DNA of 22,499 nucleotides from a virus. Positions 78 to 22,499 of the stretch are shown here, piece after piece. The notes beneath the pieces are model-generated. The model was not told where the DNA came from, searched no databases, and saw only the letters and a program-made list of their open reading frames with translations. How positions within the stretch are numbered: position 1 is the first letter of the stretch; the number at the start of each line of letters is the position of its first letter. Made by a program: the position numbers and the translations under genes. The DNA lies in IMG/VR virus record IMGVR_UViG_3300044608_000160, positions 1 through 22,499 of that record; one strand, 5' to 3'.

Positions 78-1055
78 ATGGCGCAGCCCAGTATCAATCA
101 GGTTCACATTGACGCGATCCTGACCAACATCTCCGTTGCTTACATGCAGATGGCGGAGAACTTCATTGCCGATAAGGTGTTCCCGGTTGTGCCGGTGGAC
201 AAGAAGTCGGACAAGTATTTCACCTACACGAAGAATGACTGGTTCCGTGATGAGGCGCAGCGTCGCGCCGATGCCACGGAGTCGGCAGGTTCGGGTTACA
301 GCCTCAGCACCGCGTCTTACAGCGCGGATGTGTGGGCGTTCCACAAGGATGTTGGCGATCAGACCAAGGCCAACGCGGACGCTCCGCTGAACCCGCTCCG
401 TGAGGCGTCTGAGTTCGTTACTCAGCGTCTGCTTCTTCGCCGTGAGGTGCAGTTCGTTTCCGATTACATCACCACGGGCGTTTGGGGCAAGGATTACACC
501 GGTGTTGCCGGTGCACCTTCCACGGACGAGTTCAAGCAGTGGTCGGATTACACCAACTCTGACCCGATTGAGGACGTTGAGGGCGGCAAGGCCCAGATTC
601 TCTCCACCACGGGTTTCGAGGCGAACACCCTTGTCCTTGGGTATGAAACGTTCCGCAAGTTGCGTCATCACCCGGACATTGTTGACCGCATCAAGTACAC
701 CTCGTCCTCTGTCGTGACGAGCGACATGCTCGCTCGCATGTTTGAGGTTGACCGTGTGCTTGTCGCCAAGTCGATTCGGGCCACGAACAACGAGGGTGCT
801 ACTGGCGCTTACTCGTTCAATGTGGGCAAGGTTGCGTGGCTTGGTCACGTTGCCCCGAACCCGGGCCTTCTTACCCCGTCTGCCGGTTACATCTTCTCGT
901 GGACCGGTGTTTCGGGTGGCCTTGGTCAGACGATCGGCGTTTCTCAGATTCGCATGGATTCCCTTAAGGCGGACCGTGTTGAGGCTGAGGTTGCGTTCGA
1001 CAATAAGGTTGTGGCTTCTGACCTTGGCGTCTACTTCAACACAGCGGTGGCGTAG
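78..1055 (+). CDS. major capsid protein (HK97-fold type)
   Basis: This 325-residue protein is the probable shell subunit of the phage head. Its N-terminal part (residues about 25-60, containing FIADKVFPVVPVDKKSDKYF) and the following segment rich in Arg, Asp and Ala match a widespread family of tailed-phage major capsid proteins that assemble as HK97-like shells. Length is normal for a capsid protein without a fused scaffold domain. The start is fixed by AAGGAG 8 nt upstream. It is followed two bases later by a beta-rich small gene, the usual position of a decoration or stabilisation protein, and further on by the head-tail connectors. The family is recognised from memory; the fold and exact family number are inferred. 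Confidence 0.88.
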   Translation: MAQPSINQVHIDAILTNISVAYMQMAENFIADKVFPVVPVDKKSDKYFTYTKNDWFRDEAQRRADATESAGSGYSLSTASYSADVWAFHKDVGDQTKANADAPLNPLREASEFVTQRLLLRREVQFVSDYITTGVWGKDYTGVAGAPSTDEFKQWSDYTNSDPIEDVEGGKAQILSTTGFEANTLVLGYETFRKLRHHPDIVDRIKYTSSSVVTSDMLARMFEVDRVLVAKSIRATNNEGATGAYSFNVGKVAWLGHVAPNPGLLTPSAGYIFSWTGVSGGLGQTIGVSQIRMDSLKADRVEAEVAFDNKVVASDLGVYFNTAVA

Positions 1056-1057
1056 TC

Positions 1058-1492
1058 ATGGTGAATCGTCTTACGCAGGGTGAGGCTGTCGTTGGCGCTC
1101 TCACGGCTGAGGAGACGATTGAGGGTGCCGATCTGGCAGCCTCAGACGACCTCACCGTTGGTGACGATGCGACTGTGACCGGTGACCTTACGGCGGGTAC
1201 GCTCGCCGTGGGTGGCGGTTCCACCGTCAAGGGCATTAGCACGGGCACCGGCGCTATCGACCTCCCGTCGATTTCTGCCGGGGCTACCGGGTCGGGCACT
1301 ATCACGGTCACGGGCGCTGCTGTCGGTGACATGGTTGTGGTGAACCCTCCGGCGCTCACATCAGGACTTGCCTTCGCGGGTGCTGCTGTGACGGGCGCTA
1401 ACACGGTCACGGTGTACGCGGTCAATGCGAGTGCTTCATCGATCAACGAGGCGTCTCATACGTTCCGTTACCTGTGGGTTGACCTGACCTGA
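1058..1492 (+). CDS. putative capsid decoration / head fibre-like protein
   Basis: This 144-residue protein starts at an ATG two bases after the capsid stop, probably translated by coupling because its own ribosome site is weak. Residues 1-55 are a Thr/Ala/Gly/Asp-rich stretch of short repeats (such as DDLTVGDDATVTGDL), which suggests a beta-helical or shaft-like region. Residues 60-144 form a compact beta-rich domain (around GSGTITVTGAAVGDMVVV) of a kind that recurs in phage structural proteins. Immediate downstream linkage to the capsid gene suggests a head decoration or stabilising protein, but a fibre role is equally compatible. Function is inferred from position and composition; no enzymatic motif is present. 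Confidence 0.6.
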   Translation: MVNRLTQGEAVVGALTAEETIEGADLAASDDLTVGDDATVTGDLTAGTLAVGGGSTVKGISTGTGAIDLPSISAGATGSGTITVTGAAVGDMVVVNPPALTSGLAFAGAAVTGANTVTVYAVNASASSINEASHTFRYLWVDLT

Positions 1493-1577: not shown

Positions 1578-1721
1578 GTGCCCACCACTCCGGGCGGTTT
1601 GCCGTACCCGTCAGCGTCGGATGCCGCTAATGTGCCCGCCGATTTGCAGTCTTTGGCTGAAAGCGTGGAAGACTTGCTGGACATTGCCCGTGTCGATTTG
1701 CTTATGCTGATGGGAGCCTGA
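1578..1721 (+). CDS. small 'YP' fibre-associated protein, cassette 1
   Basis: This is a 47-residue protein with a GTG start preceded by AGGGAGG (1565-1571). It contains GLPYPSASD, then VPADLQSLAESVEDLL. The pattern G-x-x-YP-x-x-x-D ... D-[LI]-Q-x-LA is familiar as a short N-terminal segment of minor tail and fibre proteins in actinophages, followed by a predicted helix. Here it stands alone as a complete mini-gene. A second copy occurs at 5968-6099, also ending in LMGA and also directly upstream of a ~105-residue beta protein. The codons for LMGA carry the GGGAG ribosome site of the next gene. It is likely a virion structural or assembly peptide; exact role unknown. Confidence 0.6.
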   Translation: MPTTPGGLPYPSASDAANVPADLQSLAESVEDLLDIARVDLLMLMGA

Positions 1722-1722
1722 A

Positions 1723-2052
1723 GTGGCTACTACTTACAAGGTGCTGGGGCAGTCCGCTCCGGGCGCAACTACGCAGACCACTCTTTACACGGTTCCGGCT
1801 GCCACTACTGCTGTTATTTCTACTATGTTCGTGTGTAATCGTGGGGCTAGCGCGGGTACTGTTCGTATCGCTGTGCGCCCTGACGGTGCCGTTCTTGCTA
1901 ATCAGCACTACTTGTACTTTGACACTTCTGTTCCCGCTAACTCAACCATCTCAATCACTACCGGCATCACATTGGACGCCGCTGACATTCTTGCCGTCTA
2001 TGCCTCCACGGCTGACTTCAGTTTCGTTGCGTTTGGGAGTGAGCGGGCATGA
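1723..2052 (+). CDS. small beta-sandwich virion protein, cassette 1
   Basis: This 109-residue protein has a GTG start one base after the preceding stop and a GGGAG site 6 nt upstream. It begins with YKVLGQSAPGA, continues with LYTVPAATTAVISTMFVCN and RIAVRPDGA, and ends in FGSERA. This family is very common in phages of aquatic bacteria and is rich in alternating beta-strand sequence, with no catalytic motif. A close paralogue lies at 4514-4843, sharing about 16 identical bases near the 5' end (the codons for YKVLGQ). A more distant one is at 6099-6404. All three are followed at once by a glycine-rich gene, so it probably works as a base or adaptor for that protein. Function inferred from context. 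Confidence 0.7.
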   Translation: MATTYKVLGQSAPGATTQTTLYTVPAATTAVISTMFVCNRGASAGTVRIAVRPDGAVLANQHYLYFDTSVPANSTISITTGITLDAADILAVYASTADFSFVAFGSERA

Positions 2053-2843
2053 GCGTAGTTCAGTATCCGGCCCCTTCCGGGTCTAAGGCACTCAGAACAC
2101 AAGAGTTTCTGGCAGGCGGGTCGTGGATATGTCCTGCGGGCGTGTTCGCGGTTGAGGTGTTCGCAGTCGGTGGTGGCGGCGGAGGTGGTGGACGTAGTAG
2201 CAGCAACTTCTCGGGCGGCGGCGGAGGTGGCGGCGGCGTCGTTACGCGCGTCGTACCTGTCACACCGGGCACGTCGTACACCGTCACGATCGGCTCTGGT
2301 GGCGGTGCTGGCGCGGCGGGCGCTGCCGGGTCAGACGGCGGAAGCACCACTTTCGGCGCTCTCGTCACGGCAGATGGTGGCGGTGGTGGCGCTAACTGGG
2401 ATGTCAGTACGCGCGATGGCGGCTGTGGTGGTGGTGGTGCGGCGTCAGACGTTAACTCGGGCGCTGGTGGTGGTGGCGGCGCGGGCGGAAATGGCAAGGA
2501 TGCTAACTCCGGCGCGTCGGGCTCCACAATCACTTGGGGCGGACGAGGCACGCAAGGTGGATGCGGCGGCGGCGGGGGTGTATCTAACGCTGGCATGGGG
2601 CACGGCGGTATCGGCGTCAACGGGTACGGCGGTGGCGGCGGTGGCGGTGGACAGAACAGCAACAACGCAGGACGACGCGGGGCCGGATCATCTGGTGGCG
2701 GCATGGGCGGGCTTGCGGGAACCGCAGCAGGTGCAGGTACCACTAACACAGGCGGCGGTGGTGGCGGCGCGGGTGGCAACTCAGGGTCCGCAGCAGCAGC
2801 GGCAGGCGGGTCCGGTTACATGCGGCTGATCTGGTGGGAGTGA
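2049..2843 (+). CDS. glycine-rich adhesin-like virion protein, cassette 1
   Basis: This 264-residue protein overlaps the previous stop by 4 nt (ATGA). Residues about 17-50 read FLAGGSWICPAGVFAVEVFA and then a poly-Gly run, the hallmark of the phage 'glycine-rich domain' found at the tips of fibres. Gly tracts alternate with short beta segments (TSYTVTIGSGGGAG, STTFGALVTADGG), and it ends in a conserved-looking SGYMRLIWWE. Gly-rich tips in other phages form polyglycine-II-type sandwiches that contact receptors, so host binding is a fair inference. Paralogues with the same N-terminal signature and C-terminal aromatic strand are at 6404-7051 and, as a fusion, at 4845-5762. Confidence 0.75.
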   Translation: MSVVQYPAPSGSKALRTQEFLAGGSWICPAGVFAVEVFAVGGGGGGGGRSSSNFSGGGGGGGGVVTRVVPVTPGTSYTVTIGSGGGAGAAGAAGSDGGSTTFGALVTADGGGGGANWDVSTRDGGCGGGGAASDVNSGAGGGGGAGGNGKDANSGASGSTITWGGRGTQGGCGGGGGVSNAGMGHGGIGVNGYGGGGGGGGQNSNNAGRRGAGSSGGGMGGLAGTAAGAGTTNTGGGGGGAGGNSGSAAAAAGGSGYMRLIWWE

Positions 2844-2845
2844 CG

Positions 2846-3148
2846 ATGGAGCGTATCTTCGCCGCTATTGACGGCGACATTATCAGTAACACGTTTGTCG
2901 GTGACGACGACTTTGCTGCCCTTGTGCGCCCCGACCACGACGAGGTTGTGGAGATTACTGGCCTTGATCCCATGCCCGGTGTCCGGTGGGCTGTTCACTC
3001 GGACGGCTACCGGCCTCCGCAGCCGTGGCCTTCGTGGGCCTGGAACGGAGCAGTCTGGTATGCGCCGGTTGAGCGTCCTGATACACCGGGTGTTTGGGTG
3101 TGGGATGAGGACGCGCAGGAGTGGACCGACCTTGCGGCGCAGGGGTAG
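2846..3148 (+). CDS. Trp/Pro-rich fibre-associated protein, cassette 1
   Basis: This is a 100-residue protein. The ATG at 2846 is chosen because GGAG (2837-2840) lies 5 nt upstream; an in-frame GTG at 2834 lies inside the preceding gene and has no better site. The C-terminal half carries PPQPWPSWAWNGAVWYAPV and WVWDEDAQEWTDL. The pattern 'PPxPWxSWxWN ... WDEDxxEW' belongs to a family seen beside tail-fibre genes in cyanophages and marine phages. The WDEDxQEW signature is repeated almost exactly in the paralogue at 7054-7443. It is likely a fibre assembly factor or fibre component; this is inference from family and neighbours. Confidence 0.65.
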   Translation: MERIFAAIDGDIISNTFVGDDDFAALVRPDHDEVVEITGLDPMPGVRWAVHSDGYRPPQPWPSWAWNGAVWYAPVERPDTPGVWVWDEDAQEWTDLAAQG

Positions 3149-3151
3149 CCG

Positions 3152-3697
3152 ATGCCTCTTACTCCTAACCTTTCTACGGTCACACTAGGTGGTCAGTACG
3201 TGGACGTATCCGGTGCCCCTATCGCTGGGCAGGTCAAGTTCACGCCGCGCACCATCCTTACCGACGCTGTTGAGGATCAGATCATCATTCCGCGCACTAT
3301 CACGGTGGACTTGGATGCGAATGGTGAGTTCACCGTTGTGCTTCCCGCTACGGACGATACTGATGTGTCTCCTAGCGGGTTCACGTACAGCGTAGAGGAA
3401 TCCTTTACCGGGGGTAGGGTTTACGATATTGCGCTTACGGCCCTTCCTGCTACACAGAATCTTGCTGACAAGGTTCCTACTGTCGCGTTGGGTGGCACGG
3501 AAGCCACGACGTATGTGCTGCTGTCGGTGTTTAATCCGCTTGAGGCGCGTGTAGATGTTATTGAGTCGGTAACGTCGTCTGTGCAGACTGCTGCTGCCCA
3601 GGTTACGGCGGCTGCTACGGCTGCTACTACGGCTCAGGCGGCTGCTTCAGCGGCTGAGGCCCGCATCCTTCACCCGTTTGTGTTCTTGGGTATCTGA
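3152..3697 (+). CDS. Ig-like domain plus coiled-coil fibre protein, paralogue 1
   Basis: This is a 181-residue protein. Residues about 8-100 form a beta domain (VTLGGQYVDVSGAPIAGQVK, VDLDANGEFTVVLPATDD, SFTGGRVYDIAL) of the type found in actinophage minor tail proteins. Residues about 125-168 include LEARVDVIESV and then an Ala/Thr/Gln-rich heptad-like stretch predicted to be a coiled coil. It ends in HPFVFLGI. The same plan, including LEARVD and the HPFVF ending, is repeated in the next gene, so these two arose by duplication. Probably a trimeric or dimeric fibre or spike subunit in the particle; not enzymatic. It starts 3 nt after the preceding stop. Confidence 0.65.
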   Translation: MPLTPNLSTVTLGGQYVDVSGAPIAGQVKFTPRTILTDAVEDQIIIPRTITVDLDANGEFTVVLPATDDTDVSPSGFTYSVEESFTGGRVYDIALTALPATQNLADKVPTVALGGTEATTYVLLSVFNPLEARVDVIESVTSSVQTAAAQVTAAATAATTAQAAASAAEARILHPFVFLGI

Positions 3698-4455
3698 TGG
3701 CTCTCGCGGGCAACGTCGCTACCGTTATCGTTACCGGTGAGTATGTGGATTTCGAGGGTGACCCTATTGCGGGGCAGGTCATCTTCGCTGTGCCTAAGGC
3801 GTTGCGTAATGCGCTGGCGGATCAGATTCTTGTGGCGTCGTCTTACTATGTGACGTTGGATGCGAATGGGGCGTTCACGGTTACTCTTCCGGCGTCGGAT
3901 GACCCGGATTTCCATGAGACGTTTGAGTACACGATCACGGAGTCCTTTACTGGGGGTAGGACGTTCTCTGCTGTTCTTCCTACGCCGTTGACGTATGCAG
4001 AGTTCGATGATGAACCGTATTCGTATTATGTAGGTCTGGGTTCTAGTTACGGTGTTGCCACGGGCACTAACGCCCGTATGAGTGCGCTTGCCCCTGTGAG
4101 TGTTCTCGGTAGCCCTCAGGTGGAACTGGCGGCTTATTCGTCGTATGTGTCGCTGGAAGCGCGTGTGGATGCTGCGGAACTTACGGTGGACACTACTCCG
4201 CCGACTACGGGCATCATTATGGCGGTGCAGTATGCGTCGGTGCCGGTTGGGTATGCGACGTACACGCTGCTTGCGGCGGGTCCTGCCACGTACACGGCTT
4301 TCTCCACGGCTCAGATTCTTGCTACTTCTGCCGCTATCGCTAACTACGCTACGGCGGCTCAGGCCTCTCAGGCCACGGCTGAGGCAGCGAAGGCGGCGGC
4401 TGAGGCTACGGAGGTTCGCGATCCGCATCCGTTTGTGTTCACGGGTGCGGCGTGA
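3697..4455 (+). CDS. Ig-like domain plus coiled-coil fibre protein, paralogue 2
   Basis: This 252-residue protein overlaps the previous stop by one base (TGATG). The N-terminal beta domain (VTGEYVDFEGDPIAGQVIF, VTLDANGAFTVTLPASDD, SFTGGRTFSAVL) closely matches the preceding gene. It then carries an extra segment of about 75 residues rich in Tyr, Ser and Val (residues about 105-190), including LEARVDAAELTV. An Ala-rich coiled coil (about 215-240) and the ending HPFVFTGAA follow. The inserted Tyr-rich segment is the main difference from its neighbour and might hold the binding surface. It is likely a virion fibre protein; role inferred from domain order and location. Confidence 0.65.
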   Translation: MALAGNVATVIVTGEYVDFEGDPIAGQVIFAVPKALRNALADQILVASSYYVTLDANGAFTVTLPASDDPDFHETFEYTITESFTGGRTFSAVLPTPLTYAEFDDEPYSYYVGLGSSYGVATGTNARMSALAPVSVLGSPQVELAAYSSYVSLEARVDAAELTVDTTPPTTGIIMAVQYASVPVGYATYTLLAAGPATYTAFSTAQILATSAAIANYATAAQASQATAEAAKAAAEATEVRDPHPFVFTGAA

Positions 4456-4462
4456 TGGGCGG

Positions 4463-4468
4463 TAGACT
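4463..4468 (+). promoter_or_regulatory. possible -10 box upstream of cassette 2
   Basis: TAGACT followed by GTTTG lies in the 58-nt gap before the 4514 gene. The same TAGACTGTkTG string occurs just after the terminator at 12541. It fits the TAnnnT pattern of actinobacterial -10 boxes, but no -35 or TGn extension is evident, so this is tentative. Confidence 0.25.
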
Positions 4469-4491
4469 GTTTGACGCTGCCACACGTATCG

Positions 4492-4503
4492 TAACCCGGG
4501 TTA
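4492..4503 (+). repeat. 12-bp perfect palindrome TAACCCGGGTTA
   Basis: A perfect inverted repeat lies directly upstream of the ribosome site (AGGAGAGG) of the GTG start at 4514. Eleven of its twelve bases recur at 8179-8189 in the same position relative to another GTG start. It could be an operator or a recombination scar. Confidence 0.5.
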
Positions 4504-4513
4504 GGAGAGGCTA

Positions 4514-4843
4514 GTGCCTATCGCTTACAAGGTGCTGGGACAGTCAGCCCCTAGCGCCACCACTAACACGGACATTTACACGGTCCCTGTTTCCACGCAG
4601 GTAGTGATCTCCTCCATCGTGGTCGCTAACCGGGGTACGGCATCCACGACGTTCCGTATCGCCGTCCGCCCTAACGCGGCAACGCTCGCGAACCTTCACT
4701 ACATCGCCTTCGACACGACTATTGCCGCTAATGACGTAGTGGCCTTGTCTCTTGGTATCACCGTAGACGCGGCTGATGTGGTGACCGTGTACGGGGGTAA
4801 TGCGGATCTGACGTTCAGCCTGTACGGAACGGAGATCACCTGA
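4514..4843 (+). CDS. small beta-sandwich virion protein, cassette 2
   Basis: This is a 109-residue protein with a GTG start preceded by AGGAGAGG. It begins with YKVLGQSAPSATTNTDIYTV, followed by VVISSIVVANRG, RIAVRPNAA and FSLYGTEIT. It is the same length as the 1723-2052 protein and plainly paralogous over its whole length, including the nearly identical first 12 residues. The gene opens the second cassette, but no YP mini-gene precedes it. Instead there is a 58-nt gap with a palindrome and a possible -10 box. It is probably an adaptor or decoration subunit for the glycine-rich protein encoded next. Confidence 0.7.
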   Translation: MPIAYKVLGQSAPSATTNTDIYTVPVSTQVVISSIVVANRGTASTTFRIAVRPNAATLANLHYIAFDTTIAANDVVALSLGITVDAADVVTVYGGNADLTFSLYGTEIT

Positions 4844-4844
4844 C

Positions 4845-5762
4845 ATGGGTATCTCGCGTATCCGCCCGGCGAGTAGCGCCTCCACGCTGTCGGCGACCGC
4901 TGCCGCAGCGAACACGGCGTACACGATCACTCAGTCCTTCGACACCGGCATCTACACGATCTCGTGTTTGTCCACGACGATTACGAACGTTGCCTTCTAC
5001 TCAGGGAACACAAGCATCACGACAGCGACCACGGTGTCCGGCTCGGTGTCAGTAGTCCTTGGCACGCCTGCCACTTCTATCGTGTATTGGACGAACACCG
5101 GCACGAACATCACCGTCAACATCTCGCTCACGGGGCAGGCGCTCCCCACGGGCTCGGCGTCGGGAACGTTGGACACGATTACGGCGTCGGGCACCTACAC
5201 GCAGGTCGGGCGCGGCCTTGTCGTGGTGGTGGGCGGTGGGCAGCGTGGCTTCGGCGGTTCGGGCGGATCGAACCCGACCACCATCGCTGGCGGTGCGGGC
5301 GGAGCGTCCGGTGGTATCACCGGGCCTACCGCAGTTGAACTGACGGGCAGTATCGCGGTCACCATCGGGGCTGGCGGCACGGCAACGAACGGTGCGGCTG
5401 GCGGTACGACTTCGTTCGGTGCGCTCACCGCAGCGTCAGGCGGCACTAACGCCGCAACCGCTAGCGGCACGGCTACGACCGCGGATCGCGCCCAGCCTGT
5501 GAAGTCTGGTACGACTGGGGCGGGCGGCGCAGGAGGCGGTGTTAGTGCGGGTCCGACACCGGGGGGTGGCGGTGCGGGCGGCGGTAGCGGCATCGGAACC
5601 GGCGGAAACGGGTCTAGCGGCGTGGGCTCCGGAACGGCAACGAGCGGTGCGGCTGGGACAGGCTACGGTGCTGGCGGCGGGGGCGGGGGTGCTGCCTACG
5701 GTACGCCTGGTAACGGCGGCAACGGTGCGCCGGGTGTTGTCTACGTCCTTCGGTTCACATAA
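4845..5762 (+). CDS. beta domain fused to glycine-rich adhesin-like region, cassette 2
   Basis: This 305-residue protein starts at an ATG one base after the preceding stop. Residues 1-105 form an extra N-terminal domain, rich in Thr and Ser, with beta-strand alternation (TAYTITQSFDTGIYTISCLS, TNTGTNITVNISLTGQ). Residues about 110-305 are the glycine-rich region with GTYTQVGRGLVVVVGGGQRG, SIAVTIGAGGTA and TTSFGALTAASGG, ending in PGVVYVLRFT. Compared with the other two glycine-rich paralogues it lacks the long early poly-Gly run and carries the additional N-terminal domain, so it is the most diverged copy. Receptor binding is inferred from the family. Confidence 0.7.
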   Translation: MGISRIRPASSASTLSATAAAANTAYTITQSFDTGIYTISCLSTTITNVAFYSGNTSITTATTVSGSVSVVLGTPATSIVYWTNTGTNITVNISLTGQALPTGSASGTLDTITASGTYTQVGRGLVVVVGGGQRGFGGSGGSNPTTIAGGAGGASGGITGPTAVELTGSIAVTIGAGGTATNGAAGGTTSFGALTAASGGTNAATASGTATTADRAQPVKSGTTGAGGAGGGVSAGPTPGGGGAGGGSGIGTGGNGSSGVGSGTATSGAAGTGYGAGGGGGGAAYGTPGNGGNGAPGVVYVLRFT

Positions 5763-5771
5763 GGAGAGGTT

Positions 5772-5981
5772 ATGGCTGACTTTGCTATCCACGATGGTTC
5801 GACGGTGGTGAACGTGATTGTGGCGGACTCGCAGGAGATCGCTGAGGAGGTCACCGGTTTGTCTGCGGTCGAAACCACAGGTGAGCCGTGGATCGGCTGG
5901 ACCCTGAGCGACGGTGTGTGGGTTGCGCCGCCTCAGCCTGAGCCTGAGTTCATTGAGGAGTTGTCTGATGCCGGAGACTAA
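5772..5981 (+). CDS. short Trp/Pro-rich fibre-associated protein, cassette 2
   Basis: This is a 69-residue acidic protein with a strong AAGGAGAGG site ending 2-3 nt before ATG. The N-terminus (MADFAIHDGSTVVNVIVADS) resembles the first strands of the 7054-7443 protein (HFVKIDADGYVIDAIVIAN). The middle WIGWTLSDGVWVAPPQPEP is a reduced version of its Trp/Pro region. It lacks the C-terminal WDED..EW repeat, so it may be a shortened paralogue. Its 3' end overlaps the next small gene by 14 nt. Position directly after a glycine-rich gene is the same as in the other two cassettes. Confidence 0.6.
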   Translation: MADFAIHDGSTVVNVIVADSQEIAEEVTGLSAVETTGEPWIGWTLSDGVWVAPPQPEPEFIEELSDAGD

Positions 5982-6099
5982 CCTGGGATTCCGTTACCCT
6001 GCGGGTTCGGACACCCCTGATGTGCCGCGTGATATTCAGTTCCTTGCGGACGATGCGAATGAGCAAGAGATCATTACTTTGATGGGAGCGTGGGCCTGA
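5968..6099 (+). CDS. small 'YP' fibre-associated protein, cassette 3
   Basis: This is a 43-residue protein starting at ATG 5968 with GAGGAG about 7 nt upstream. A longer in-frame start at 5914 has no ribosome site and reads through the previous gene in another frame. It contains LGFRYPAGSDTPDVPRDIQF, then LADDANEQEIITLMGAWA. The YP..SD....VP.D[IL]Q.LA pattern and the LMGA near the end match the 47-residue protein at 1578-1721. As there, the LMGA codons (GATGGGAGC) provide the Shine-Dalgarno element for the next gene. Role unknown; presumed structural or chaperone-like partner of the adjacent beta protein. Confidence 0.55.
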   Translation: MPETNLGFRYPAGSDTPDVPRDIQFLADDANEQEIITLMGAWA

Positions 6100-6404
6100 T
6101 GGCTGCTACTGCTAAGGCTCTGTTCCGTGGGGCGGCTACGACTAACACGGCGACGGTTTTGTACACGACACCTTCTGCCACTACTACGGTTGTGACTCAG
6201 ATTGTTGTGGTTAATACTTCGGCGTCGGGGCAGACGGCGACTATGTTTTTGAATGGTGTTGACATTATGGCTGCGGCGGCTGTTCCGGCTAATTCTTCTT
6301 TGGTGTTGGATTTGAAGCAGCCTATTGCGGCTACTCAAACTATTACGGGTGGGGCGTCTGCGGTGTCTGTTGATTTTCATGTTGCTGGGGTGGAGATCGT
6401 CTGA
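6099..6404 (+). CDS. small beta-sandwich virion protein, cassette 3
   Basis: This 101-residue protein overlaps the preceding stop by one base (TGATG). An in-frame GTG 9 nt upstream is less well placed. The sequence shows alternating beta strands (ATVLYTTPSATTTVVTQIVV, NTSASGQTATMFLNGVDI, VSVDFHVAGVEIV). It shares the strand order and the LYTxPxxTTxVxxxxVxN theme with the 1723 and 4514 proteins but has lost the YKVLGQSAP start, so it is a distant relative. The codons are strongly T-rich (gct, ttt, ggt) compared with the C-richer neighbour 6404-7051, hinting at a separate origin. Likely adaptor or decoration subunit. Confidence 0.65.
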   Translation: MAATAKALFRGAATTNTATVLYTTPSATTTVVTQIVVVNTSASGQTATMFLNGVDIMAAAAVPANSSLVLDLKQPIAATQTITGGASAVSVDFHVAGVEIV

Positions 6405-7051
6405 TGGGTGCTTCGCTGTTCCCTCCCCCCGCTGGTGGTAAGACCCCTAAGTTCGCCGAGTTCACCGCTACGGGCTCATGGACGTGCCCCGCCGATGTGT
6501 TGACAGTCGAGGTTTTGATGTGCGGCGGCGGTGGTGGCGGCGGTCGCGGCAATTCGTGGGGCGGCGGTGGCGGCGGTGGGTCCGTGACAAAGAGTCTGCT
6601 AACTGTAGTTCCTGGCACAACCTACACCATCACGATCGGTGCGGGGGGCGCTGGTGTTGCTTCTTCGCCTGGCACGGGTGGCACAGGTGGCTCGTCTACC
6701 TTTGGGGCGTTACTTACCGTGACAGGCGGCATCGGAGGCGGTCCCGCTAATGACTCCGCTCAGCCGATAGCGGGCGGTCGCGGAGGCGGATTGTCGGGTG
6801 GGCACGGCGGTAATGGCAACACCGGTACTACGACTACTTCATCACGTTACGTCAACAATGGCGGTGTAGGAATCGACGGCTTCGGCGGCGGTGGTGGCGG
6901 CTTTTCTAATGGCACTTACAGCGGCGCAAGTGACGGTGGAGGGTCAAGCAACGACGCTGGGCGTATAAACAGCGGCGGCGGGGCAAGTGGCACGACTACT
7001 TCCAACCTTGCTGGCGGTTCTGGTTTCTGTCGCATCGTGTGGGAGGAGTAG
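6404..7051 (+). CDS. glycine-rich adhesin-like virion protein, cassette 3
   Basis: This 215-residue protein overlaps the preceding stop by one base. Residues about 17-48 read FAEFTATGSWTCPADVLTVE followed by a poly-Gly run, the same signature as the protein at 2049-2843. TYTITIGAGGAGV and SSTFGALLTVTGG repeat the same internal strands, and it ends in GSGFCRIVWEE, parallel to SGYMRLIWWE. It is about 50 residues shorter in the glycine-rich body. Presumed receptor-contacting tip of a surface fibre or decoration. Low-complexity glycine codons make this gene a likely site of recombination with its paralogues. Confidence 0.75.
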   Translation: MGASLFPPPAGGKTPKFAEFTATGSWTCPADVLTVEVLMCGGGGGGGRGNSWGGGGGGGSVTKSLLTVVPGTTYTITIGAGGAGVASSPGTGGTGGSSTFGALLTVTGGIGGGPANDSAQPIAGGRGGGLSGGHGGNGNTGTTTTSSRYVNNGGVGIDGFGGGGGGFSNGTYSGASDGGGSSNDAGRINSGGGASGTTTSNLAGGSGFCRIVWEE

Positions 7052-7053
7052 AT

Positions 7054-7443
7054 ATGGCGCACTTCGTGAAGATCGACGCCGACGGTTATGTCATTGACGC
7101 AATCGTCATTGCCAACGAGAACGCGCCCGATCCCGCGCCGGGCAATAGTGAACCTCTAGGTCAGGCGTTCATCGCATCACTCGCGGACAACGAGCCGCGC
7201 CTCGCAGGCGTATGGGTGCAGACTTCTTACTCGGGTGCGTTCCGCAATCAATACGCGGGCGGTGACGGCTACCGCTACGATGCCTACGCTGATGTGTTCA
7301 TCGCTCCGTCCCCGTATGCGTCGTGGGTGCTAGACGCGGATCAAGACTGGCAGCCGCCCGTCCCAATGCCTACCGGCGACGGCAGTTGGTCGTGGGATGA
7401 GGACTCGCAAGAGTGGATCGACACGACACCGCCGGAGGCTTGA
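7054..7443 (+). CDS. Trp/Pro-rich fibre-associated protein (cyanophage-type family), cassette 3
   Basis: This 129-residue protein starts at ATG 7054, preceded by GGGAGGAG (7041-7048). A GTG-type start at 7039 lies within the previous gene. The order AHFVKIDADGYVIDAIVIAN ... GVWVQTSYSGAFRNQYAGGD ... YRYDAYADVFIAPSPYASWV ... WQPPVPMPTGDGSWSWDEDS matches a family common in T4-like cyanophages and marine phages, where it accompanies fibre genes. The closing WDEDSQEWID repeats the ending of the 2846-3148 protein. This is the longest of the three cassette members and probably the ancestral form. Its biochemical role is not known to me; fibre assembly or a fibre subunit are candidates. Confidence 0.7.
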   Translation: MAHFVKIDADGYVIDAIVIANENAPDPAPGNSEPLGQAFIASLADNEPRLAGVWVQTSYSGAFRNQYAGGDGYRYDAYADVFIAPSPYASWVLDADQDWQPPVPMPTGDGSWSWDEDSQEWIDTTPPEA

Positions 7444-7444
7444 A

Positions 7445-7855
7445 GTGACTTGGACTTACACGGGTGACCCTAACGTCTCCGACCGTGACCGTATCCGGTT
7501 TCTGATTCAGGATACGGATACCACAGACCAACTTGTCTCCGATGAGGAGATTGCTTGGGCGCTCACAGAGGCGGGGTCTACTTATCAGACGGCGCATGAT
7601 CTATGCACGATTATTGCGGCTAAGTTCGCCCGTTTGGCTACGTCTAAGAGTGTTGGGGATTTGTCTCTGTCGTATTCGGATAGGTCTGAGACGTATCATC
7701 GGCTTGCGGGGCGTATGTTGCATTTGGCTGATCGGCGTGATGTTCCTACTCCGTGGGTGTCTCCTAAGAACTTGCAGACTGCTGCTGAGCGTTCTGAGTT
7801 GGGTATGCAGGGGCATGAGTTCCATACTGGGGTTCACGACAATCAGAGGCTTTGA
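7445..7855 (+). CDS. head-tail connector (adaptor) protein, gp6/gp15-like
   Basis: This 136-residue protein has a GTG start one base after the previous stop and GGAGG upstream at 7434-7438. The opening TWTYTGDPNVSDRDRIRFLI, then QDTDTTDQLVSDEEIAWAL, is the characteristic start of the HK97 gp6 / SPP1 gp15-type adaptor family, followed by a helical bundle (TAHDLCTIIAAKFARLA). The adaptor forms a ring under the portal to which the stopper attaches. Length is typical. The next three genes are stopper, tail-completion and tail-terminator candidates in canonical order, which supports the call. Confidence 0.82.
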   Translation: MTWTYTGDPNVSDRDRIRFLIQDTDTTDQLVSDEEIAWALTEAGSTYQTAHDLCTIIAAKFARLATSKSVGDLSLSYSDRSETYHRLAGRMLHLADRRDVPTPWVSPKNLQTAAERSELGMQGHEFHTGVHDNQRL

Positions 7856-8181
7856 TGGGTATTGCGCGTGATTTCTATGTGATGATGCCGCACACCGTGA
7901 CGGTGTTTGGTACTTCGACTATGGATAAGTACGGGAAGCAGGCGTGGTCGGGTGCGGGCACTAACTATCGGTGTCGTCTTGTGTTCGATTCGCGGATGGT
8001 TCGTGATGCTGAGGGTCGGGAGATTCTTGAGGAGGGCCGGGCCATTGTGTATGGGGTGGCTACGGTGACGGTGAAAGATCGGTTGACGTTGCCGGGCGGA
8101 AGGTCACCCCTGGTTACTTCTGTGGCTACTATTAAGGATGAGACGGGCGATCACCATACGGTCATCGGCTTCGGTGCCTAA
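7855..8181 (+). CDS. head-tail stopper-like connector protein
   Basis: This 108-residue protein overlaps the previous stop by one base (TGATG). Small beta-barrel composition (HTVTVFGTSTMDKYGKQAWS, YRCRLVFDSRMVRD, VYGVATVTVKDRLTLPGG) and position right after the adaptor match the SPP1 gp16-type stopper family. The stopper closes the portal channel after DNA packaging and docks the tail. No catalytic motif. The call rests largely on gene order and length, with weaker family recognition. Confidence 0.72.
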   Translation: MGIARDFYVMMPHTVTVFGTSTMDKYGKQAWSGAGTNYRCRLVFDSRMVRDAEGREILEEGRAIVYGVATVTVKDRLTLPGGRSPLVTSVATIKDETGDHHTVIGFGA

Positions 8182-9409: not shown

Positions 9410-9654
9410 AGGATTTGACGCTGATGGTGATGCCTGATCGTAAGGTGTGGATTGACTCTGAGTCGCTTATTTCGTACATGCGAATGATTCAGCGGCAGGC
9501 CGGGGCGCAGGCTGCTGAGGCGCATGGGGTTGGGGATTTCCACGGGTACGCTGCTGCGGTTGCTGTCGATTCGATGATGCAGCAGATGGCTGACAGTCTT
9601 CAGGTGACGGCCCTGTCGGCTATTGACAGGATGGAGAGGCCGCGTGTCTCTTGA
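9400..9654 (+). CDS. unknown small protein
   Basis: This is an 84-residue protein. ATG 9400 is preferred, with GGGG at 9391-9394; a GTG at 9394 would add two residues. No family recognised. It opens with a short basic/hydrophobic strand (VKDLTLMVMPDRKVWIDSES) and continues as mostly helix rich in Met, Gln and Ala (MRMIQRQAGAQAAEAHGVGD, SMMQQMADSLQ). It overlaps the HTH gene by 10 nt and the phosphoesterase gene by 11 nt, so it is translated with them and may act in the same process. Confidence 0.6.
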   Translation: MSVKDLTLMVMPDRKVWIDSESLISYMRMIQRQAGAQAAEAHGVGDFHGYAAAVAVDSMMQQMADSLQVTALSAIDRMERPRVS

Positions 9655-10831
9655 GGACGATCTTGGTTCGCTAGTTTCGCCGGGGCCTACGTCTCCGTAT
9701 CAGCCTGCTACGTCTCGGCCTCCTGTGGGTTGGGAGCCGGGTGTGGCGTGGGATGGTAACGCGGGCACGCTGACGACTAGCCCTATGGATGCTCCGCCCC
9801 GTGATTGGGTTGAGTTGCTTGCTGTGTGGGATTTGGACCCGGCTGAGTATGAGGTGGTTGAGCCGGTTCAGTATCGGGCTTGGGATGCCGGTATCGGTGA
9901 GGGCAATGTCCAGCGGCTCTTCTATTACCGGGCGAACATTCGCCGTAAGCGTGCGGGTGGGGTGTCGGCTGATGATCTTGTGGATGCGATTGCTAAGTGG
10001 CGTCCCCGTAAGCAGGCTGATCCGGTTGAGGGCGGGTTGTCGTATGTGGTGGCGGCGGGTGACCTTCAGTTAGGTAAGCCGGATGGTGATGGTACGGCGG
10101 GTACGGTTGAGCGGTTCCTGACTAAGACTGATGCGGCGGTTACGCGGCTTAAGGAGTTGCGCCGGTTGGGGCGTCCGGTGTCGGATATTACGTTGCCGTG
10201 GCTGGGGGATTGTGTAGAGGGCCTGTATTCGCAGGGTGGTGCGCTTGCTGCTGCGGGGCGTCTTGACTTGTCGATTACGGAGCAGGTCAGGGTGTTTAGG
10301 CGTTTGATGCTTCATCAGGTGAAGGTGTTTGCTCCGCTTGCTGATCGTGTGGTGATTCCGGTGGTGCCGGGTAATCACGATGAGGCTCAGCGTGTGGGTA
10401 AGGTGGTGCGCTCGTACACGGATTCGTGGGCTGTTGAGGGTGCTGCTGCTGTGTCGGATGCGATCCGTTTGTCTGGCGGGTTTGAGAATGTGTCGTTTGT
10501 GTTCCCGCAGGATGATGAGTTGACGGTTACGTTGGATTTGGCGGGCACTCCTACGGGGTTCGCGCATGGGCATCAGTTTGGGCGTGACCCGATTAAGTGG
10601 TGGGCTAATCAGGCTCACGGTATGCAGCCGATTGGGTCAGCGACGTTGCTGTTGGGGGCGCATCTTCACCATTTGCGGGTGGAGCAGACGGGCGCTAAAT
10701 CGTTCATTCAGATTCCAGCGTTGGACGGGGGCTCGCAATGGTGGAAGCATCGGACGGGTCAGGATTCTCCGGCTGGGCTTGTGACGATGCTTGTGGGGCA
10801 TGGCGGTTGGGGTGACCTGGCGGTACTGTGA
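9644..10831 (+). CDS. calcineurin-like metallophosphoesterase
   Basis: This 395-residue protein has a GTG start with GGAGAGG at 9632-9638. Metal-site motifs appear in the proper order: GDLQLGK (139-145), GDCVEG (188-193), GNHDE (243-247), AHGHQFG (307-313) and GAHLHH (338-343). They match the dinuclear metallophosphoesterase/Mre11-type fold (D-x-H, GD, GNHD, H, GHxH). In motif I the usual His is Gln, as I recall from other phage members (DxQxGK). The first ~130 residues are a Pro/Trp-rich region with a helical part (QRLFYYRANIRRKRAG), perhaps a DNA-binding or partner domain. It could act as a nuclease or phosphodiesterase on DNA or nucleotides; substrate not determinable. It lies unusually within morphogenesis genes. 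Confidence 0.8.
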   Translation: MSLEDDLGSLVSPGPTSPYQPATSRPPVGWEPGVAWDGNAGTLTTSPMDAPPRDWVELLAVWDLDPAEYEVVEPVQYRAWDAGIGEGNVQRLFYYRANIRRKRAGGVSADDLVDAIAKWRPRKQADPVEGGLSYVVAAGDLQLGKPDGDGTAGTVERFLTKTDAAVTRLKELRRLGRPVSDITLPWLGDCVEGLYSQGGALAAAGRLDLSITEQVRVFRRLMLHQVKVFAPLADRVVIPVVPGNHDEAQRVGKVVRSYTDSWAVEGAAAVSDAIRLSGGFENVSFVFPQDDELTVTLDLAGTPTGFAHGHQFGRDPIKWWANQAHGMQPIGSATLLLGAHLHHLRVEQTGAKSFIQIPALDGGSQWWKHRTGQDSPAGLVTMLVGHGGWGDLAVL

Positions 10832-12653: not shown

Positions 12654-12887
12654 TTGGCTCAGTATCGGGCTCTGGTTGGTTTGGAGTACCCCCCGGATCG
12701 TAGGGTTGAGGCGGGTCATATTGTTGACGACCTCCCCGGCAAGAGCGTTAAGTGGCTTCTTGAGCAGGGCCTGATTGAGCCCGCTACCGGTAAGCCCGCC
12801 GACAGCAAGAAGGATGCGAAGCCTGATTTCGCTGCCCCGGCTCCCGCTCCCGCTACCCCCGTTGAGGATGAGGAGGATGAGGGCTGA
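12654..12887 (+). CDS. conserved small protein preceding the tail tube genes
   Basis: This is a 77-residue protein. TTG 12654 is chosen because AGGAGG (12640-12645) lies 8 nt upstream. An in-frame GTG at 12645 overlaps that site, and a GTG at 12549 lies in the presumed promoter. The sequence AQYRALVGLEYPPDRRVEAG, then IVDDLPGKSVKWLLEQGLIE, matches a widespread small phage protein, with an acidic Pro/Ala/Asp-rich tail (APAPAPATPVEDEEDEG). Its function is not established to my knowledge. It overlaps the tail tube start by one base, and in related phages it sits among head-tail or tail tube genes, so a structural or assembly role is likely. Confidence 0.65.
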   Translation: MAQYRALVGLEYPPDRRVEAGHIVDDLPGKSVKWLLEQGLIEPATGKPADSKKDAKPDFAAPAPAPATPVEDEEDEG

Positions 12888-13606
12888 TGGCCTTTAAGCA
12901 TGGCAAGAACACGGGCGTCCTGATTGACGACGCTAACCTGTCGGCGTTCTTCAATGAGGCGTCTGCGTCTCAGGATGTGGAGACTGCGGAGACAACGACG
13001 TTCGGCTCTTCGGCTAAGTCGTACATCATCGGCCTGAAGGACGGCACCATGTCCATGTCGGGCATGTTTGATGGTGACGCTAACGCTATTGACGATAAGT
13101 TGACAGCGACCCTTGGGGCTGACTCTCCCGGTTATGCGACGGTGGCCCCTGAGGGCCTGACCATCGGTAACGCCTCGTACTCATGTCAGGCACGTAAGAC
13201 CTCCTACGAGGTTTCGTCTCCGGTCGGTGACGTTGTGTCCGCGAACCTTTCCATTCAGGCAGACGGCGGCATTGACCGTGGCGTTCTGCTTGGGGCTGCT
13301 ACCGCTGTCACTTCCACGGGCACCGGCGCTTCGCAGGACAACGCGGCTTCATCGGCTAACGGTGGCGCGGCGTACCTGCATGTCACGGCTAACACCCGCG
13401 ACGGCAGCAGCACGTTTAAGGTTCAGCACTCGTCCGACAATACGACGTTTGCTGATCTTGCTACCTTCACCGGAGTGAGCGCCACTACTACGGCGTCCGA
13501 GAAGGTCAGCGTCACCGGCACGGTGAACCGTTACCTCCGTGCCTCTCATGCCCCCGGTGGCTCCACCGGGTCGGTCACCTACACAATGGCGTTCGCCCGG
13601 AAGTAA
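12887..13606 (+). CDS. major tail (tube) protein with C-terminal extension
   Basis: This 239-residue protein overlaps the previous stop by one base. Residues 1-132 (MAFKHGKNTGVLIDDANLSA, VETAETTTFGSSAKSYIIGL, TSYEVSSPVGDVVSANLSIQ) match the phage tail-tube family of actinophages, whose hexamers stack to form the tube. Residues 133-239 are an added Thr/Ser/Ala-rich beta domain (AAYLHVTANTRDGSSTFKVQ, NRYLRASHAPGGSTGSV), probably an Ig-like or carbohydrate-binding-type module exposed on the tail surface. The next gene encodes the same core without this extension. Confidence 0.82.
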   Translation: MAFKHGKNTGVLIDDANLSAFFNEASASQDVETAETTTFGSSAKSYIIGLKDGTMSMSGMFDGDANAIDDKLTATLGADSPGYATVAPEGLTIGNASYSCQARKTSYEVSSPVGDVVSANLSIQADGGIDRGVLLGAATAVTSTGTGASQDNAASSANGGAAYLHVTANTRDGSSTFKVQHSSDNTTFADLATFTGVSATTTASEKVSVTGTVNRYLRASHAPGGSTGSVTYTMAFARK

Positions 13607-13617
13607 GGAGTCATAAA

Positions 13618-14049
13618 GTGGCGTTCATTCATGGCAAGAAGAGCAAGTTCGAGATTGACAACTCTGGCGGCACCCTCACCGACATTTCGGCGTTCTGCGA
13701 CGAGGTTTCCCTGAGCCGCGACATTGAGACGGCTGAGGTCACCACGTTCGGTGACAATGCCAAGGAGTACATCATCGGCCTGTCCGATGCGACCATCAGC
13801 GTGTCGGGCAAGTTCGACGCTGCGGGTTCTTCGACGGTTGACGCTGTGCTGGCGGGCATTCTGGGCCAGGAGGCTTCCACTTCCTTCGCCTACACCCCCG
13901 GTGGTGGTACAGAGTCGTCCACTAACCCCAAGTACACGGGCGAGTGCTACCTCACCTCGTACGAGGTTTCGGGTAGCGTCGGTGACGTTACTTCGTTCTC
14001 CGCTTCGTTCCAGGTCACGGGTGCTATTACCCGCGACGTTACTCCGTAA
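13618..14049 (+). CDS. second tail tube protein (paralogue, core domain only)
   Basis: This is a 143-residue protein with a GTG start and TAAGGAG upstream (13604-13610). It shares with its neighbour the start MAF.HGK, the ETAE.TTFG..AK.YIIGL block, the S.SG.FD segment and the C-terminal TSYEVSGSVGDVTSFSASFQ. It stops at the point where the other protein enters its extra domain (ITRDVTP versus IDRG). Duplicated tail-tube genes could give a tube of two subunits, a different layer at one end of the tail, or a decorated versus bare mixture. Which is the main tube subunit is not clear from sequence. Confidence 0.8.
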   Translation: MAFIHGKKSKFEIDNSGGTLTDISAFCDEVSLSRDIETAEVTTFGDNAKEYIIGLSDATISVSGKFDAAGSSTVDAVLAGILGQEASTSFAYTPGGGTESSTNPKYTGECYLTSYEVSGSVGDVTSFSASFQVTGAITRDVTP

Positions 14050-22483: not shown

Positions 22484-22499
22484 TGACCATGCCTTCGCT

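Follow-up and report, generated by a model that had tools for sequence, protein, structure and literature searches.

Three putative fibre-tip units between the capsid and neck genes of a virus: a probable relocated tail-fibre module

The genes between the capsid and neck genes of the window (the whole 22,499-nucleotide stretch analysed here, from a virus that probably infects aquatic actinobacteria) are probably a tail-fibre (receptor-binding) module that has moved into this slot and comprises three fibre-tip units, each with the order anchor - B - C - D. The open reading frames, gene order and position proposed in the initial annotation were confirmed, with PHROG profile matches on both sides. 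The slot is bordered on the left by the major capsid protein gene (78..1055, forward strand, as are all genes given below; phrog_1005, major head protein, E 5e-98), followed by g2 (1058..1492), which encodes a small protein recognised in many relatives and had no PHROG match at E 0.1. The right border is ad1 (7445..7855; phrog_1732, E 3e-21), called the first neck-region gene by position, after which come the head-tail connector gene ad2 (7852..8181; phrog_3881, E 9e-6) and a match to a further connector family (phrog_5, E 2e-7). The three cassettes as delimited initially hold 11 genes, not 12. In the mechanism we propose, the anchor (A1; X1-X2; A3) would form the base or shaft of a fibre, with a hydrophobic tail as its last residues; B, a small jelly-roll protein, would bind this tail and carry C; C, a glycine-rich adhesin tip that is presumably trimeric, would contact the host; and D would fold C, working like the chaperone gp25 of phage Pam3. 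Two B classes would fit two tail types, allowing several tips to be mounted without mis-joining, with all three perhaps in use simultaneously.

B was found in 21 of the 28 records searched, lying in the capsid-neck slot in 19 and in the tail module, 14-15 kb downstream, in 2; the records are related to one another and the slot counts may include near-copies, the right slot border is out of view in G002, G003, G025 and G026, and G003 is counted on the condition that the two ends of its record are joined. Both records with B in the tail module have an empty or nearly empty slot. Filled-slot records lack A, B, C, D and X genes after the tail-end gene d2 in 10/10 cases (forward strand, over the 2-11 kb that were read), and the five of them checked have endolysin-like genes there, whereas A, B, C or D genes occur after the tape measure gene or d2 in 4/4 empty-slot records read. 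Only these four of the empty-slot records extend as far as the tail end, two of them (G005 and G013) covering just 2-3 kb there and carrying A without B, and the comparison after d2 rests on relatives, the window ending at position 22499. Because empty-slot relatives have such genes in the tail module and filled-slot relatives do not, the region is most likely a relocated tail-fibre module, whose products would sit on the tail of the virion. The surface fibre on the head suggested by the initial annotation is unlikely, since in sister phages these genes belong to the tail module, and it was dropped as first choice. Hence the caution that a fibre gene adjoining a capsid gene need not encode a head fibre.

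Cultured phages offer partial parallels. Pontimonas phage phiPsal1 (MG835450; actinobacterial host) has a B-C-D set of identical order behind a gene for a short protein with the C-terminus NALMLMGG, and its C belongs to the Gly_rich_2 family; the set is, however, present in a single copy within the tail module, after the tape measure and a putative tail fibre, and its C is unannotated in the record. The closest cultured capsid relatives, Arthrobacter phages Ottawa and LiSara (59-61%), also have extra large proteins in the capsid-neck slot, including an annotated minor tail protein in LiSara, although no A, B, C, D or X was recognised there. Insertions between capsid and tail genes are described for Arthrobacter phage Laroye in PMC5513430.

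The anchors tie the region to tail fibres. The mini-protein genes A1 (1578..1721; GTG start after GGAGG, most likely at 1578) and A3 (5968..6099) are paralogous, and in locus L250 an A domain forms the N-terminus of a Pfam Tail Collar protein (E 8.5e-21), while A and C are fused into one protein in L004. A second paralogous pair, overlooked initially, lies between cassettes 1 and 2 (3152-4455): X1 (3152..3697), with a fibre N-terminal domain, an Ala-rich stretch and the end HPFVFLGI, and X2 (3697..4455), which match at 49% over 95 aa (E 6e-25). X1 hit phrog_14726 (tail fiber, E 1e-18) and, across residues 5-139, phiC31 gp49 (tail fiber protein, NC_001978; 35%, E 3e-6); a sequence search of X1 against solved structures gave only chance-level matches. 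Both A and X are thus homologous to the N-termini of annotated tail fibres. Cassette 2 had been described as having no YP gene, but X2, whose C-terminus is a tail of this kind too, directly precedes B2, and we therefore read it as the proposed anchor of unit 2.

The adaptor genes B1 (1723..2052) and B2 (4514..4843; sister of the L018 B) were assigned to class 1 from the tree, and B3 (6099..6404), whose ATG overlaps the A3 stop and whose most likely start is 6099 (101 aa), to class 3. The best PHROG of B1 has no assigned function (phrog_1276, E 1.5e-9) and the second-best is a tail fiber family (phrog_11338, E 9e-9). One scan of viral contigs returned at least 575 B relatives, and one query of one-per-species bacterial and archaeal genomes returned none; no credible Pfam family was found (lowest E 0.0008, from 1 of 76 B), and B sequences gave only chance-level rows against solved structures. 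The AlphaFold2 model of B1 is an 8-strand beta sandwich (pLDDT 95.6). Its top Foldseek row, a "pentameric capsid protein from metagenomic phage" (E 0.002 but TM 0.34), was not used.

This fold bears on a rival reading in which B would be a turret base on the capsomers and C a trimeric head, adsorbing reversibly and head-first like HFTV1, a virus that often binds head-first and whose turret consists of a base hexamer and a trimeric head, according to PMC12494034 and PMC9973310. The region does lie directly 3' of the capsid gene, and the B model matches HFTV1 8qpg_TD (Z 9.7, 95 residues; presumed from the chain length to be the turret base) as well as the KHP40 cement protein (Z 9.6). However, plant HD2 domains (Z 9.4-10.0) and nucleoplasmins (Z 8.2-8.9) score about equally, so that the jelly-roll fold is not diagnostic, and the HFTV1 turret (PMC12494034), though B-like in its small jelly-roll fold, has no sequence link to B and sits on the capsid. 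Capsid-mounted fibres or turrets are unlikely given also that these genes lie in the tail module of sister phages, that in other phages B comes after a gene for the tape measure or a tail fibre, and that A and X look like tail-fibre N-termini.

C and D lend further support to the tail-fibre reading; against it, a labelled C comes after B in only 35 of 83 cases. C1 (2049..2843; E 1.6e-13) and C3 (6404..7051; E 7e-20) match Pfam Gly_rich_2 with scores of 51.6 and 72.4, above the curated cut-off of 24.3 bits, as do phiPsal1 C (84.6) and the fused L004 A+C (44.0). C2 (4845..5762; phrog_863, E 6e-15) had no Gly_rich_2 match and is a more distant glycine-rich protein; the initial proposal of corresponding C members therefore held for C1 and C3, with C2 divergent. 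The N-terminal GSWxCPA..VEV stretch noted earlier in C1 and C3 is real (E 7e-4 with low-complexity masking), but we read it as typical of Gly_rich_2 in general and therefore as no proof of local duplication. Searches with C3 gave only chance-level sequence matches to solved structures and no match in the phage collection.

D is represented by the Trp-rich D1 (2846..3148; most likely start 2846), D3 (7054..7443; most likely start 7054; phrog_7759, a family of no assigned function, E 1e-29) and a short D2 of 69 aa (5772..5981), which aligns with the N-terminal part only. The gene immediately 5' of D is glycine-rich in 62 of 78 cases, against 206/3770 of all genes. The best structural match of the D3 model is a Pam3 fibre entry (7ypx chain a, residues 1-57; Z 6.1, rmsd 2.0 over 57 residues), with the runner-up at only Z 3.2; the match is weak but isolated, and a Z of 6.1 could reflect a common arrangement. 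Foldseek alone gave no significant match (Pam3 at rank 8, E 2.8), and the C-terminal half of the D model had no structural match. Lake phage Pam3 pairs a glycine-rich adhesin tip, gp24, with the small chaperone gp25 (PMC9608196, PDB 7ypx), which were cloned as a single DNA segment (PMC9608196), and it is the fibre-binding N-terminal beta domain of gp25 that the D model matches. The gp25-type helical trimerisation domain is nonetheless absent from D (no helix of at least 4 residues past residue 49 in the D3 model), because of which D is not filed as a gp25/Tfa-type member, although we propose that it works like one; searches of PDB sequences gave no match of value and no sequence link to gp25. 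The window virus also differs from Pam3 in adding the separate adaptor B, anchor genes and several units. No credible Pfam family was found for D (at most 2 of 54 match any one family, best E 0.003, none a chaperone), and short D had no match of value in the phage collection or among solved structures. From the D3 model and the gene order, we infer that D may be the chaperone of C. Exchange of a receptor-binding module with its own chaperone between distant phages is reported for Alteromonas phages (PMC10579305, PMC7289586). Overall, the initial suggestion of a fibre or adhesin module with adaptor, tip and helper is supported.

The units are related, but apparently not as copies of one block. 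Single-sequence profiles (no relatives added; E-values scaled to 35 window proteins) linked B1 to B2 (E 2.8e-38) and B3 (E 1.1e-8), D1 to D3 (E 2.9e-9) and A1 to A3 (E 1.7e-7). With relatives added and the window's own virus excluded, B1-B3 reached E 2.9e-28 in round 1, and D1-D2 was recovered only then (E 2.3e-6 in round 2), so that the predicted paralogy of corresponding A, B and D members is borne out. The DNA of the cassettes is alike in patches only, with longer stretches 69-75% identical across 64-138 nt and short ones of at most 37 nt, which argues against recent block duplication. In the B tree, which has few columns and unsettled bootstrap, B2 clusters with relatives having B behind X (4 rows, support 99/99), B3 falls in a separate deep clade (21 rows, support 100/100) and B1 is sister of neither; the nearest relatives of A1, B1, C1 and D1 sit in different loci. 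Copying of a single ancestral anchor-B-C-D cassette within the lineage, followed by divergence, would account for the identical order of all three units and the paralogous A, B and D members, and could have preceded the split of the B classes. We consider it improbable, as B1, B2 and B3 occupy different places in the tree, the closest relatives of the unit-1 genes are spread over several loci, and the class-1/class-3 split is also present in other phages. The cassette copied as one unit in the initial annotation thus gives way to units that may have been gathered and diversified over time, without recent copying as a block. Copy number varies as predicted (three B in 2, two in 5 and one in 14 of the 21 records with B), and scattering of the genes is partial, with C-D, B-C and A found separately in other phages.

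At the sequence level, the protein just 5' of B usually has a hydrophobic, FLLMGA-like end, with a different end before many class-3 B; this appears to be new here, and no earlier description of the B or D families, the tail or the relocation was found in open-licence literature. In the window, A1 ends in LLMLMGA (1698..1718) and X2 in HPFVFTGAA (4426..4452), both of class-1 type, and A3 in the class-3 type IITLMGAWA (6070..6096). The pattern was fixed on the first loci and then applied to held-out genes (B less than 90% identical to the first set, from the same collection as source), where it matched 50 of the 80 genes that precede B, compared with 54 of 1112 others. The T1 tail was present in 41/46 held-out class-1 predecessors, and T3 in none; T3 was present in 13/34 class-3 predecessors and T1 in none, T3 as written being absent from the other 21/34, and a simpler class rule gave 4 class-3 genes with T1. 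Predecessors were the longest ORF, from 25 aa, in the held-out set (6 of 86 B had no adjacent ORF) and greedy gene calls in the first set. They are regarded as mutually unrelated solely because they differ in length (42-949 aa) and in domain content (collagen in L155; X; A), and clustering into unrelated families returned one large linked cluster (71/79 in the first set; 54 held-out).

These patterns suggest that the tail is a docking peptide for B. Going further, we tentatively propose, with slightly more doubt than confidence, a plug-and-socket code in which C-terminal peptides of 6-9 residues (F-L-L-M-G-A type for class 1, L-x-x-I-M-G-A-Y type for class 3), borne by highly diverse anchors, shafts and mini-proteins, dock into B in at least two non-cross-reacting classes. 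One virion could then carry several different tips, and tips could be swapped between distant phages, or from a tail to a head gene module, with the shaft unchanged. As the best PHROGs of B and D have no assigned function, much viral dark matter could be annotated if B is the fibre-tip socket and D the chaperone of the tip; the short tail would then flag receptor-binding genes and offer a simple test of how several host-binding tips are carried by phages and passed between them. The tail could also be a general fibre feature, because hydrophobic ends occur on proteins that do not precede B: the 113 such matches in the first set comprised 33 X, 28 A, 37 unlabelled and otherwise other proteins. 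Alternatively, it might be a side effect of the Shine-Dalgarno site that serves B, since ATG GGA GCN contains GGAG, and the tail glycine codon is indeed GGA in 66/70 class-1 cases with a gap to B below 12 nt. With gaps of at least 12 nt, however, the tail is kept in 14/20 class-1 cases with GGA in 0/14, the hydrophobic residues ahead of the glycine lie outside the site, and X2-B2 has a 58-nt gap, the glycine codon GGT and its own AGGAGAGG, making this origin very improbable. B gaps longer than 75 nt were excluded from the tail counts; in the first set, 2 of the 3 such gaps contain a short ORF ending ALMTMGA.

The window, which is the whole IMG/VR virus record (22,499 bases), carries a slot between its major capsid gene (78-1055) on the left and first neck gene (7445-7855) on the right. 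This slot contains a small gene following the capsid gene (g2) and 13 fibre-type genes in the order A1-B1-C1-D1, X1-X2, B2-C2-D2 and A3-B3-C3-D3, where A is a proposed anchor mini-protein, B a small protein with a predicted jelly-roll fold and a proposed adaptor role, C a glycine-rich proposed tip, D a chaperone-like protein and X a fibre N-terminal-type protein. By capsid protein, the nearest cultured phages infect Arthrobacter (up to 61%) and, in one case, Microbacterium (55%), which makes an actinobacterial host likely.

In all, 28 records of the window's phage family were searched with a B alignment and the capsid protein. B was found in 21 records, 19 of which have it within the slot (the right border is out of view in G002, G003, G025 and G026, and counting G003 requires end-to-end joining of its record), and two of which have it 14-15 kb further on (G011, slot of 234 nt; G016, slot of 75 nt). 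B was not found in the available sequence of the other seven, including G005, G012 and G013, which have near-empty slots. D was found in 13 of the 28, with 12 in the slot region (among them a weak match in G026, E 8e-4, whose placement requires a joined record) and one in the tail module (G016). Among the empty-slot records whose tail region was read, G016 carries C-D-429 aa-B-C-C downstream of its tape measure. In G011, A-(153 aa)-B-C-(360 aa)-C follows the tail-end gene d2, and the A protein contains a Pfam Tail Collar domain; G005 and G013 each encode a protein headed by A in this region. None of A, B, C, D or X was found after d2 in any of ten filled-slot records (L242-L247 and L252-L255; 2-11 kb, forward strand). 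An endolysin-type domain (CHAP, amidase or peptidase) follows d2 in the five of these whose candidate gene was checked, the L242 match being below the curated cut-off; G006 (L245) encodes large proteins of 930 and 778 aa after the tail-end genes, a position taken by small genes in the other nine. From this comparison we conclude that the slot probably holds the tail-fibre module.

Slot occupancy was also surveyed in the 35 relatives from L003-L082 that show both slot borders (near-copies kept; L003 and L011 represent the virus of the window itself, and L018 and L020 are mutual near-copies). B was in the slot in 14, the neck gene was at most 80 nt from the capsid gene in 12, six had a slot of 234 nt (space for one 76-aa ORF) and three had other genes. 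The slots of three named isolates (L083-L085) were without A, B, C, D and X. For Laroye, large insertions separating the capsid genes from the tail genes have been reported (PMC5513430). A 224-244-aa protein of unknown function (e.g., L004 13171-13854; L018 7406-8092) is found repeatedly, both in the fibre slots and next to the B-C sets of other phages (18 matches).

Elsewhere, the cultured Pontimonas phage phiPsal1 has one B-C-D set downstream of its tape measure and putative tail fibre. Between its B and D lies an unannotated 298-aa glycine-rich ORF (L230, MG835450.1, 8349-9245; Gly_rich_2 E 1.4e-23), where the record annotates instead two short other-frame ORFs (phiPsal1_022 and 023, "no BlastP matches"). 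In two sets of ten proteins each, neighbouring genes elsewhere encode, among others, tape measure and tail-fibre proteins, the remainder being function-unknown proteins, glycosyltransferases, a halogenase and a portal. A glycine-rich gene directly precedes 61 of 78 D genes and an A+C fusion one more, the remaining D genes following an unlabelled gene (11, none glycine-rich) or another D (2) or lying at an edge (3); C-D arrays alternate in loci L177 and L170. The B-C pairing is looser than the C-D pairing, because C follows only 35 of 83 B genes and an unlabelled gene follows 40. In L097 (9223-9827), a pair of B genes, each of about 100 aa, forms a direct tandem, and in L185 a B domain lies inside a 428-aa protein adjoining two further B genes.

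The initial annotation described three paralogous cassettes in the slot, a gene set copied as a unit. Profiles built from single window proteins (E values per 35 proteins) matched B1 to B2 (2.8e-38) and B3 (1.1e-8), D1 to D3 (2.9e-9), A1 to A3 (1.7e-7) and X1 to X2 (3.9e-26); for the D1 profile to reach D2 (2.3e-6), two rounds with added relatives were needed, with contigs of the window's own virus left out of the database. C1 and C3 are both Gly_rich_2 members with a common N-terminal motif, and C2 had no match to this family in a Pfam search. Copying of the three units as a block is not what the sequence comparisons suggest. A tree of 80 B proteins, with few columns and a bootstrap that had not settled, placed B1, B2 and B3 apart: two deep classes were recovered (class 1, 59 rows with B1 and B2; class 3, 21 rows with B3; each 100/100), and B2 grouped with B genes following X (99/99), with B1 outside that group. 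The nearest relatives of A1, B1, C1 and D1 are in different loci, although for C the evidence is weak and the match glycine-rich. L018/L020, with 80% identity in the capsid, have no B in unit 1, whose A is 195 aa long, and no D in unit 3; in L004, A and C are fused in a single 346-aa protein. Both B classes occur a few kb apart in L100, L107, L117, L132, L154 and L159, and, judged by length, in L119.

Proteins encoded directly before B commonly end in a hydrophobic tail, as in A1 (LLMLMGA), X2 (HPFVFTGAA) and A3 (IITLMGAWA), and in relatives (FSSFLFIGA, LNSFLLMGA, PTALMTMGA and INPLLLIGG; before class-3 B, LTLILMGAL and EIANIMGAY). The pattern occurred in 58/79 B-preceding genes versus 113/2665 others in the loci on which it was fixed, and in 50/80 versus 54/1112 in a held-out set (86 new B genes sharing <90% identity with those of the first set; for 80 of them an ORF lay adjacent on the upstream side). 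For class-specific patterns T1 and T3, written with the held-out tails already seen, held-out class-1 predecessors had T1 in 41/46 and T3 in 0/46, and class-3 predecessors had T3 in 13/34, T1 in 0/34 and neither in 21/34 (several of these ending in variants, e.g., IEDIMDSK, and others plainly unlike), against a background of 39/1145 (T1) and 13/1145 (T3); first-set values by class were 47/55 and 17/21. A simpler class rule left four T1 tails before class-3 B. The phiPsal1 tail directly before B (NALMLMGG) fits the pattern, and DSL-LC04 and P-SSM2 show no clear fit. When the gap to B is short, the Shine-Dalgarno site is a genuine confound, the tail glycine codon being GGA in 66/70; at gaps of at least 12 nt it is not, as GGA occurs in 0/14 and the tail is retained in 14/20. 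The 113 background matches comprise 33 X, 28 A, 37 unlabelled, seven ad2 (head-tail connector), five B, two C and one capsid; such tails could form a series of successive joints or be a property of fibres in general. In many relatives (L068, L080, L082, L109 and others), a 65-aa protein ending FFLVGA precedes a second X gene that ends LLLIGG and itself precedes B, possibly a chain of docking tails.

Based on comparative sequence analysis, we propose that the anchor tail would insert in a socket of B, which would bear the C tip. D would act as the chaperone of C, as proposed from gene pairing and a weak but isolated fold match: the D3 model (pLDDT 89) aligned with chain a of the Pam3 fibre entry (Z 6.1 over 57 residues; next best 3.2), whose 162 residues equal the length of gp25, the chaperone of the glycine-rich fibre gp24. 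For the B1 AlphaFold2 model (mean pLDDT 95.6), the closest chains by Z were plant HD2 domains (up to 10.0), an HFTV1 turret entry (9.7), a phage cement protein (9.6) and nucleoplasmins (up to 8.9), and a Foldseek search gave no match at E < 0.001. Glycine-rich tips with chaperones (PMC9608196) and exchange of fibre-chaperone modules (PMC10579305, PMC7289586) are already known. For the class-matched tail and the probable head/tail relocation, as for the B and D families, no description was found in the open-licence papers searched, a set far from the whole literature.

Further along the window, a phosphoesterase/exonuclease-like protein (9623-10828; phrog_284, E 5e-66) separates the neck genes from the tail-tube genes, and many relatives reaching that far have it too. 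Two neighbouring tail-tube-like proteins (12887-14049) share 45% identity, and both are present in several relatives that extend to this region.
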